Part shown: positions 33,843 through 41,735 of the stretch, piece after piece
Layout: the number at the start of each line of letters is the position of its first letter
How positions within the stretch are numbered: the stretch's first letter is position 1
Virus record (IMG/VR): IMGVR_UViG_3300025674_000089
Coordinates: 1-43,930 of that record
Direction: 5' to 3' (one strand)
DNA from: a virus
DNA length: 43,930 bases
Made by a program: the position numbers and the translations under genes
The notes under the pieces: model-generated
Told to the model about the DNA's origin: nothing
Databases searched by the model: none
The model's input: only the letters and a program-made list of their open reading frames with translations

Positions 33843-33860
33843 TATGGTATAATAATCATA

Positions 33861-33917
33861 CGTTCATCCATTCGCTATTTGCGAATAGCGAATAGGACGC
33901 AAGTAAGTCGCGGAACG
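33861..33917 (+). ncRNA. Putative glutamine riboswitch (Downstream-peptide/glnA type)
   Basis: P1 is CGTTC (33861-33865) with GAACG (33913-33917). P2 is a perfect 10-bp stem, ATTCGCTATT (33870-33879) with AATAGCGAAT (33884-33893), loop TGCG. The conserved core CATCC...AGGACGCAAGTAAG and the GGAACG end fit my recollection of the cyanobacterial Downstream-peptide/glnA glutamine aptamers. It lies just upstream of a 59-aa gene whose GGAG site (33917-33920) abuts the P1 strand, so ligand binding could change translation. Confidence 0.72.
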
Positions 33918-33920
33918 GAG

Positions 33921-34132
33921 CGTTCATCCTATGTTATCATTGGCACTCATCTTTTTTAGTCATGTCCCACCTGGGGATTTCCTTAGGTGTGAAGACTATG
34001 AATGGTTAAAGCAAGGATTGGAAGAGACAACTCTTTTCACTCCCTTTGAGAAGTCTGATATTCTCATCCACTGGATGAATCATACAGACCCTCACTGCTT
34101 TGATAAGTAGGACGCACACGACTGAAGGAACG
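33921..34132 (+). other. Second aptamer-like half pair enclosing a peptide gene
   Basis: The same CGTTCATCC recurs at 33921-33929, and TAGGACGCA-N10-GGAACGG recurs at 34108-34133 with the same spacing as in the first aptamer (33893-33918). P1 (CGTTC/GAACG) and a P2-like stem (CCTA..TTATCA at 33928-33939 with TGATAA..TAGG at 34101-34111) could form, placing the whole 59-aa gene in the P2 loop. Confidence 0.5.
33931..34110 (+). CDS. 59-aa peptide gene under putative glutamine riboswitch
   Basis: 59 codons. Hydrophobic start (MLSLALIFFSHVPPGDF), then acidic/aromatic (CEDYEWLKQGLEE) and FTPFEKSDILIHWMN, with a Cys near the end. GGAG lies 10 bases before the ATG. Short peptides of 17-100 aa downstream of this RNA class are known, and in cyanobacteria glutamine aptamers control glutamine-synthetase inactivating factors. 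No similarity to those factors is claimed. It could modulate host nitrogen assimilation during infection. Confidence 0.65.
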   Translation: MLSLALIFFSHVPPGDFLRCEDYEWLKQGLEETTLFTPFEKSDILIHWMNHTDPHCFDK

Positions 34133-34169
34133 GGATCTTAAAACATCTCATTTCTTTAGGAGTAAACCG

Positions 34170-34316
34170 ATGAATCTTCTTAACCTTTACAGCAACAACA
34201 CTGCTTATCGTGGTATCTCATATGATCCTCACGCTAAGAAGGAAACCGAAGTCAAGACCTTTACTGAAACCTATCGTGGTAGCAAGTATCAGGTGACCAA
34301 GGAGGTTGCAAAATGA
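34170..34316 (+). CDS. DUF4278-like small protein
   Basis: 48 aa, preceded by a TTTAGGAG ribosome-binding site and by the second aptamer-like 3' half. It has TAYRGISYDPHAK and TYRGSKYQV, the Y-R-G-x-x-Y repeat typical of DUF4278, a small family common in cyanobacteria. It was likely taken from a host and is of unknown function. It overlaps the next gene by 4 bases. Confidence 0.6.
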   Translation: MNLLNLYSNNTAYRGISYDPHAKKETEVKTFTETYRGSKYQVTKEVAK

Positions 34317-36584: not shown

Positions 36585-37228
36585 AATTCTTCTCTGGTGA
36601 TGACTTCAGAATCAACCCACACCTGAAGTATACTCCTTCGTATGACGTTGAAGTCGTCGATGGACAGACCATTGTGTATGTTGATAACGTTTACAAGAAT
36701 CCCAGTAGGGTTGTTGAATACCTCAACAACTGTCCTATTGTTTCTCACAAACCCCAAGACCCAACTAGGGGCAATGGACGGGACTTCTATGATGGACGGC
36801 AGTCGATCACCGAGGCGTATGATCCTGCTTGGTTTGATGTCCACAAAACAGTTGCTTCTCTTTTGGGAGTCAGAAATTTTCACTTCGATGGGGCTTGCAT
36901 GTTTAACATGACAATGTTAAACTCTTCTCCAAGAGGTCACTGGTTTCCCCACACGGACCCAGATAACATCAACTGCATTGTTTATCTCAACGAGGATAAC
37001 GACTATGGACCAGGCACTTCTTTCTATCGATCATTCAAGTATCATGGTAAGGGAGAGCATTATGATCCATGGGTAACTGCAGCAGATGAATCCCATTGTA
37101 TCCTGGACAGATACAACTGTGCCGTCTTCTTCCTGGGTAACATCTATCATTCAATGAGATTGGTAGGTGAAACCTTTGTAGGCAGACCACGATTCTCCGA
37201 AGTCCACTTCTTAAAACTGGGACAGTAG
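36581..37228 (+). CDS. 2OG-Fe(II) oxygenase-like (DUF6445-type) protein
   Basis: 215 aa. H124-T-D126 (WFPHTDPDNINCIVYL) and YGPGTSFYRS, with a distal His in FFLGNIYHSMRL near 194 and Arg in RPRFSEVHF, match the 2OG-oxygenase HxD...H pattern. I think of the DUF6445 family, which I cannot confirm here. ATGA overlap upstream. Its last 10 bases, including the TAG stop, are the first 10 bases of the tRNA gene. Confidence 0.7.
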   Translation: MKFFSGDDFRINPHLKYTPSYDVEVVDGQTIVYVDNVYKNPSRVVEYLNNCPIVSHKPQDPTRGNGRDFYDGRQSITEAYDPAWFDVHKTVASLLGVRNFHFDGACMFNMTMLNSSPRGHWFPHTDPDNINCIVYLNEDNDYGPGTSFYRSFKYHGKGEHYDPWVTAADESHCILDRYNCAVFFLGNIYHSMRLVGETFVGRPRFSEVHFLKLGQ

Positions 37229-37291
37229 CTCAGCGGATAGAGCAACTGCCTTCTAAGCAGTCGGTCGTAGGTTCGATCCCTACCTGTCTCG
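37219..37291 (+). tRNA. tRNA-Arg (anticodon TCT)
   Basis: A 73-base cloverleaf without encoded CCA. Acceptor stem: GGGACAG/CTGTCTC with one G-T pair. D stem: GCTC/GAGC. Anticodon stem: ACTGC/GCAGT with loop CTTCTAA, anticodon TCT (reads AGA). T stem: GTAGG/CCTAC with TTCGATC loop. It probably helps decode AGA codons, which are commoner in A/T-rich phage genes than in marine Synechococcus. The upstream CDS stops inside it. Confidence 0.95.
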
Positions 37292-41573: not shown

Positions 41574-41735
41574 GGTCAACGGGTTAAGAAACGTTAAGTT
41601 TTCCGATCTCTTGTAAACACCCCAAACCGAGACCTATAGGGTGTATAAAGCACGTCTCTCATATCCCGCCTGAGGGTGGCGGGAGCATAGTATCACCACC
41701 ATTTCCCTGATGGTCCTACTATCTGTTTAAGTTCA
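41574..41735 (+). promoter_or_regulatory. Structured psbA leader
   Basis: A 160-base leader without a gene. It has two GTTAAG motifs 10 bases apart (41583, 41593), an ACACCC/GGGTGT pair near 41617 and 41639, a hairpin CCCGCC/GGCGGG (41665-41670 with 41678-41683), and a bulged stem ATAGTA..ACCAT/ATGGT..TACTAT (41687-41722). No Shine-Dalgarno is visible before ATG 41736, so folding may control translation. Confidence 0.6.

Follow-up and report, generated by a model that had tools for sequence, protein, structure and literature searches.

A nested glutamine-I-type riboswitch candidate with genes in its hairpin loops in cyanophage leader RNAs

The leader RNA described here lies in a 43,930-nt stretch of viral DNA (positions 1 to 43,930 of IMG/VR record IMGVR_UViG_3300025674_000089, hereafter the window) and has a nested anatomy, in which an outer aptamer encloses a second, circularly permuted core, with complete genes located within the hairpin loop termed P2, within that termed P2′, within both, or within neither. 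We propose that the leader is probably a single nested glutamine-I-type riboswitch that acts as a translational switch over the embedded open reading frame (ORF) and a downstream DUF4278 gene. An earlier note had described glutamine-riboswitch-like RNAs at 33861–34132, arranged in tandem and one of them with a gene in its loop. The observation is real, its statements about the sequence all hold, and its likening of the RNA to glutamine riboswitches is supported; the strands are paired differently, and the functional unit is wider than first noted, extending to approximately 34149 and back to the promoter at 33848.

All of the elements are on the forward strand. The −10 box, TATAAT (33848–33853), predicts a transcript starting at approximately 33860, directly at the aptamer. 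Read from the sequence, the outer aptamer consists of P1, formed by CGTTC (A1, 33861–33865) and GAACG (B2, 34128–34132, within GGAACG at 34127–34132), together with P2, loop E, P3, and a long-range pair. P2 is hairpin a (33867–33897), which is compact in the window, a perfect 10-bp duplex of ATTCGCTATT and AATAGCGAAT with the palindrome TTCGCTATTTGCGAATAGCGAA at 33871–33892. It is followed by the linking strand CGC and the loop-E 5′ strand AAGUA (33898–33905, with AAGUA at 33901–33905), the sequence between hairpin a and the linker AGTCG reading CGCAAGTA from 5′ to 3′. The last base of this linking strand, C33900, corresponds to position 23 and is expected to pair with G34133 at position 60 (numbering from PMC6698751 and PMC5393176). 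The P3 5′ strand AGTCG (33906–33910) pairs with CGACT (34119–34123), the first part of a segment (34119–34127) that also holds the loop-E 3′ strand GAA (34124–34126) and G34127. The P3 arm ends in the second core, which is circularly permuted as judged by the order of its strands (GGAACG-G-nn-CGUUCA-hairpin-ACGC). Its first strand, GGAACG (B1, 33912–33917), was assigned by folding and RNAalifold, and its second, CGTTC (A2, 33921–33925), lies beyond the intervening GAG and pairs with 33913–33917. P2′ is hairpin b (33927–34112), closed by 33927–33932/34107–34112 and 33934–33939/34101–34106, and its loop is a 59-aa ORF (33931–34110, MLSLALIFF...CFDK, phrog_13397) with a hydrophobic N-terminus and two cysteines. 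The likely Shine-Dalgarno (SD) sequence of this ORF, GGAG (33917–33920), is shared between the end of B1 and 33918–33920. The inner linking strand CGC (34113–34115) completes the core, with C34115 expected to pair with G33918. Downstream of B2 are a small predicted hairpin, GGAT/ATCT (34133–34148), which uses G34133 and is a possible expression platform, and then AGGAG (34158–34162), by its sequence the SD of the 48-aa DUF4278 gene (34170–34316), the regulated gene. The earlier note had called the downstream gene DUF4278-like, and it does match PF14105 (26.0 bits, cut-off 25.3).

The repeated halves that led to the tandem reading are as described. Copy 1 reads CGTTC (33861–33865), core AGGACGCAAGTAAG, and GAACG (33913–33917); CGTTCATCC recurs at 33921–33929, its two occurrences in the 43.9-kb window both being in the leader; the matching half, TAGGACGCA-N10-GGAACGG, is at 34108–34133 with the N10 spacing of copy 1; and CCTA..TTATCA is complementary to TGATAA..TAGG around the complete 59-codon ORF.

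The leader region is matched by 370 phage records, and viral contigs, scanned with both ORF and DNA patterns, yielded at least 361 distinct complete leaders from cyanophages with the layout A-hairpin/ORF-B-A-hairpin/ORF-B, a sample and not a census. Since the same leader recurs in so many distinct arrays, it is not a product of chance. It should be noted that the array counts are of sequences, not evolutionary events, and that the search patterns fixed the helix strands (CGTTC/GAACG) and AAGUA, whose invariance is therefore partly by construction. Among the matches listed, short hairpins occupy both positions in 80 of 361 arrays, and a long insert is found in hairpin b in 198, in hairpin a in 35, and in both in 48. 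An ORF is present in 327 of the 329 long inserts listed (83 in hairpin a and 244 in hairpin b). These loop ORFs fall into six sequence families without detectable mutual similarity, and family 1, that of the window, is found in both loops. Hence the earlier view of two aptamers, one with a gene, was right in placing a gene in a loop and too narrow in its scope, as either loop, both, or neither may hold one. The downstream genes listed have the YRG signature of DUF4278-type proteins, Pfam having been applied to the window's gene only. Other features of the loops were noted. The palindrome TTCGCTATT-NNNN-AATAGCGAA (33871–33892 in the window, and also in L202, L213, L432, and others) occurs at most once per locus and was hairpin a or b of the aptamer in every case inspected, with the palindrome in a and the ORF in b in the window type and the reverse, as if swapped, in L202 and L213. 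In L605 (~2100–2330) an extra AGGAGG precedes the ORF inside the P2′ stem and the inner linking strand is CGCG. Hairpin b of L484, a compact array, contains a longer insert, rich in AT and repeating a TTAGGATTCTTAATA unit, and the loop thus tolerates non-coding inserts too. In phage S-RIM32 (KU594606.1, 2500–2860) the embedded ORF is unannotated, and in S-RIM8 it is annotated (SWSG_00109).

The loop ORFs and the stems that close them are both under selection, which upholds the claim of a gene within a hairpin loop. The ORFs are under purifying selection, with dN/dS of ~0.19 among 91 distinct members and 0.20 in a further set of 28, and they are therefore genes. The long P2 pairing that the earlier note had proposed was examined in relatives by exchanging the ends of ORFs between clusters, and the closing stem averages −10.2 kcal/mol with its own ends versus −5.75 with swapped ends (34 ORF clusters; 0 of 20,000 permutations), the same comparison with 64 clusters giving −10.75 versus −6.39 kcal/mol. 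Recoding the same proteins synonymously also gives less stable closing stems (mean z of the natural stems −1.49, with 54 of 64 clusters below the median and 23 below 5%). The coding and folding functions overlap closely at both ends of the ORF. The AUG is 3–5 nt past CGTTCA in 243 of 244 hairpin-b ORFs, and in 51 of 64 cluster representatives the stem takes in at least two of its bases. At the 3′ end, 217 of the 244 hairpin-b ORFs read on through the linking strand and P3 to a UGA stop adjoining loop E, and the stop codon of 30 of the 83 hairpin-a ORFs is within loop E itself, while the window ORF stops at a UAG inside the P2′ stem. All 327 loop ORFs, across the six families, encode exactly two cysteines and a hydrophobic N-terminus, the cysteine spacing being 34–40 residues in the examples printed, and from these sequence features they may form one class of small, exported two-cysteine proteins. 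AlphaFold2, with a 67-member alignment, predicts a helical hairpin for the 59-aa family (mean pLDDT 87.3, residues 1–10 low), with the invariant cysteines C20 and C56 near its ends. A usable relative of this protein was found neither by Foldseek against the PDB nor by a profile search against PDB sequences, and PHROG family 13397, to which it belongs, has no assigned function.

The central issue is which strands pair. Complementarity cannot decide between A1-B1 with A2-B2 and A1-B2 with B1-A2 because the four P1-type strands are identical, and four other lines of evidence decide. In glutamine aptamers the base that follows CG in the linking strand has as its partner the base just past the P1 3′ strand (C19:G41 in glutamine-II, PMC6698751; positions 23 and 60 in the crystallized glutamine-I sequence, PMC5393176). 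Across 383 arrays, the combination of position 23 with the base after B2 is C:G 282 times and G:C 101 times, with zero exceptions, and the base after B1 is always G. This change splits the arrays into two groups, the window belonging to the C:G group, and few evolutionary events may be behind it. The P3 linkers covary between the units (AGTCG/CGACT, AATCT/AGATT, AATCG/CGATT, AGTCA/TGACT, CAACG/CGTTG, and others), their duplexes averaging −4.25 kcal/mol versus −2.64 when swapped. Unguided, RNAalifold on 20 compact arrays gives A1-B2 and B1-A2. By a count of pairs in this alignment the nested form is 95.2% paired, with two-sided changes in 13 pairs, and the tandem form breaks both diagnostic pairs in 8 of the 20 sequences; the P2 pairs of the compact arrays also covary. 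Folded without constraint, 21 of 22 compact arrays and the 289 nt of the window itself take the nested form as their minimum-energy structure, which in the window includes A1/B2 and hairpin a. The constrained energy of the nested form is below that of the tandem form in 80 of 80 compact arrays. The CGTTC/GAACG helices never vary, a relaxed scan of the inner helix having found no compensatory changes within them, and so P1 and the inner helix give no covariation of their own. A plain circularly permuted B1-A2 aptamer lacking an outer partner was rejected, as the stems around the ORF match within A_i..B_i and A1-B2 is supported.

In the nested form the P3 arm is flanked at its outer end by AAGUA and by GAA (345 of 383 arrays) or AAA (38 of 383), whereas an array alignment has no AAGUA/GAA, and hence no loop E or equivalent turn, at its inner end. 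The inner copy has CGUUC, ACGC, GGAACG, and a C23:G60-type pair in permuted order. Since the search required the helix strands, the real test lies in the linking strand and the pair alone, and the pair (C34115:G33918 in the window) is C with G, invariantly, in 383 of 383 arrays. Thus, judged by its sequence, the inner copy keeps the glutamine-contacting strands, and its binding of glutamine is uncertain because loop E is absent. A stronger version of the mechanism, which we put forward tentatively and consider somewhat less probable than its opposite, is that the leader contains a pair of interlocked glutamine sites, related by a near two-fold symmetry, that share one P3 and bind cooperatively, translation of the ORF and folding being strictly alternative.

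The strand identity that hides the pairing also allows for a kinetic switch, in which tandem A1-B1 would form first during transcription and rearrange to the nested form once A2 and B2 appear. The four helix strands are interchangeable, the constrained energies of the two forms are only 3–4 kcal/mol apart, and in the C:G group, which includes the window, both states keep the 23:60 pair, so that a transient tandem state is possible there. Yet the conserved and covarying P3 and loop E form in the nested state only, the tandem state breaks 23:60 in the G:C group, and A1-B1 is no longer a short-range pairing when hairpin a holds an ORF, and we regard such a switch as unlikely.

Less likely still is the reading of the earlier note, in which A1-B1 and A2-B2 close two separate glutamine-type aptamers in tandem and the ORF lies in the hairpin of the second. 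The C:G group does have all of the contact bases in both tandem units, the compact first unit gives weak Rfam matches when taken alone, and single units of relatives reach 35 bits. In the G:C group, however, position 23 would face the G after B1 and be unpaired, the P3 linkers pair across the units and not inside them, and the nested energy is the lower one in every compact array. An aptamer closed by its own adjacent P1 is thus not what RNAalifold, covariation, the energies, or the nested Rfam matches described below indicate; all link A1 with B2 and B1 with A2, and the "compact aptamer" at 33861–33917 is not self-contained, the 3′ strand of its P1 being part of the inner permuted copy.

A role of the repeated halves at the DNA level, as sites of recombination or integration through which small genes are swapped, with the RNA fold incidental, is very improbable. 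Family-1 ORFs do occur in both loops, and between the window type and L202/L213 the ORF and the TTCGCTATT..AATAGCGAA palindrome trade loops, but the conservation matches the contact bases and loop E of the glutamine aptamer exactly, a DNA site would not require the base-pair covariation seen in P3 and 23:60, and the leader begins ~7 nt after a −10 box. Host glutamine-II RNAs precede short ORFs (PMC2864571), and the start and stop contexts here are short and constrained, but the notion that the ORFs are ordinary downstream peptides, that the second B half is a separate element before the DUF4278 gene, and that the stem is coincidental or imposed by coding, the least probable of all, conflicts with the swap and recoding tests, with the short hairpins that replace ORFs at the same place in the 80 compact-compact arrays and in either loop, and with the separate DUF4278 peptide that follows and differs from the embedded ORFs.

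The two Rfam families named in the earlier note both match the window, but below their cut-offs (RF01704, 17.1 bits versus 33; RF01739, 15.9 bits versus 35), as expected with ~200 nt inserted, and R1, our own covariance model for compact arrays, scores 27.6 bits and takes in only part of the window because the ORF exceeds the length of the model. RF01739 matches whole nested elements in L496 (48.5 bits, with a 56-nt insert in P3), L547 (41.0), and L625 (40.2). A second Rfam search of L496 returned two half-matches (33.4 and 28.5 bits) and did not repeat the nested 48.5-bit match, so Rfam alone would not settle the pairing. Single units are matched in L585 (second unit, 35.0 bits) and L187 (34.6), and the RF01704 cut-off of 33 is reached only in L625 (35.7 bits).

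The phage leader resembles glutamine-I (glnA RNA, RF01739) in its CGUUC/GAACG P1, P2 hairpin, linking strand CG(G/C), loop E AAGUA/GAA, P3, 23:60 pair, and downstream DUF4278 genes. It differs in that P3 ends in a permuted second core and not in a simple loop, that the P2 and/or P2′ loops hold complete genes, and that 23:60 is inverted to C:G in the window's group. With glutamine-II (Downstream-peptide RNA, RF01704; Yfr6) it shares the CGUUCA..CGC..GGAACGG strands, the C19:G41 pair (PMC6698751), and a nearby small peptide gene, the Yfr6 transcript having a short central ORF (PMC1242208). In contrast, at the 30 host loci read the peptide gene comes after a single closed aptamer, and the phage RNA, which scores only 17.1 bits in the window, is without the glutamine-II P2 hairpin. 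Specifically, in copy 1 only CGC/GCG is available for that hairpin and position 42, the partner in A33:G42, is A, and by reading copy 2 no complementary flank was found. There are two cores per leader, as in other tandem riboswitches and in the tandem glnA aptamers of Weinberg 2010 (PMC2864571), but the phage cores are interleaved through a shared P3 (A1-B2 around B1-A2) and not serial. Group I and II introns with ORFs in their peripheral loops, and RNAIII, are structured RNAs with a protein gene in a loop. Yfr6 itself has been likened to RNAIII (PMC1242208). These are ribozymes or riboregulators, whereas the phage structure is a metabolite-type aptamer with the start codon in an aptamer stem.

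The nested element appears to be phage-specific within the genomes searched. Among 400 genomes of the host family (that of G001, reached via a Prochlorococcus SAG contig), a strict pattern gave two matches, both on phage-like contigs, one having phage-like neighbors and the other being a Prochlorococcus single-cell contig, and model R1, applied to 61 of these genomes, matched only the same contig; a looser pattern scan of genome contigs returned nearly all chance matches. Of 41 host genomes, 28 had glutamine-II and 14 had glutamine-I, and the nested form was seen in none of the 45 host RF01704/RF01739 loci read. A host origin of the element was rejected on the basis of these two phage-like matches and the 45 host loci.

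The flanks of the leader provide a promoter and candidate expression platforms. In relatives the −10-like box most commonly ends 7–8 nt before CGTTC (177 of 310 located boxes). A consensus scan found no full sigma-70 promoter at the window leader, and no intrinsic terminator was found that could serve as the expression platform. In 305 distinct leaders the −10 box is within an inverted repeat ~30 nt upstream of A1 (33844–33858 in the window), whose arms vary among phages (GGTCTATAATAGACC, TGTGTTAGTATTAACACA, AAGATCTATAATGATCTT) with a mean longest arm of 5.6 nt versus 4.0 in shuffles; it is a candidate operator or a candidate transcribed hairpin. Downstream, in the G:C group, the sequence CUCUUUA, starting at base 60, can pair with UAAGGAG, which contains the SD of the DUF4278 gene, and base 60 has a downstream partner in 67 of 75 flanks. 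For the C:G group, shuffled sequence does about as well as the hairpin after B2, which shows no clear advantage over it. Separately, GUUCAUC of A1 (33862–33868) is complementary to the DUF4278 start region GAUGAAU (34169–34175), and this pairing is present in the minimum-energy fold once the start codon is included; by that prediction it is a possible OFF state for phages with the gene start ATGAAY. The window also contains a PhotoRC-II RNA (41605–41698, 77.2 bits) and a tRNA gene (37219–37291).

From this anatomy we infer the ligand, the polarity of the switch, and the functions of the proteins as follows. Glutamine would stabilize the nested fold, in which the embedded start codon would be held in the P2 or P2′ stem and its SD, within B1, in the inner helix, leaving the ORF silent. 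Position 23 would capture base 60 and free it from the hairpin before the DUF4278 gene (34133–34148 in the window, which would compete with the long-range pair through G34133), and DUF4278 would be translated (ON). Such a polarity would agree with host glutamine riboswitches of both types, in which glutamine turns expression on (PMC6316151). At low glutamine, or with a ribosome on the embedded gene, the aptamer would be melted, the two-cysteine protein made, and DUF4278 repressed. To translate the ORF, a ribosome would have to open P2′ and also, in most relatives, P3 and the inner linking strand, and thus folding of the aptamer and translation of the embedded gene should be alternatives. DUF4278 corresponds to the N-terminal part of IF17, the glutamine-synthetase inactivating factor (PMC6316151), and, judging from this domain identity, the phage product would act on glutamine synthetase during infection as host IF17/IF-like proteins do.

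The essence of the proposed mechanism is that a sensor and a gene occupy the same RNA. Riboswitch aptamers are normally non-coding and are located before the gene they control, while here the aptamer encloses a complete gene, an arrangement that recurs with different ORF families, and the stop codon and some of the C-terminal codons of the embedded genes are provided by the aptamer core. The open-access papers searched describe no glutamine riboswitch that is nested or contains a gene, and by that measure the pairing seen here, nested and circularly permuted, would be a new riboswitch architecture; it would also explain why family-model searches miss or split these elements. If the reading with two glutamine sites is true, the riboswitch would control a gene by enclosing it rather than by preceding it. 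Under the proposed mechanism, a nitrogen-status sensor of the host and a relative of its glutamine-synthetase inhibitors would be under phage control, which bears on how cyanophages handle host nitrogen.
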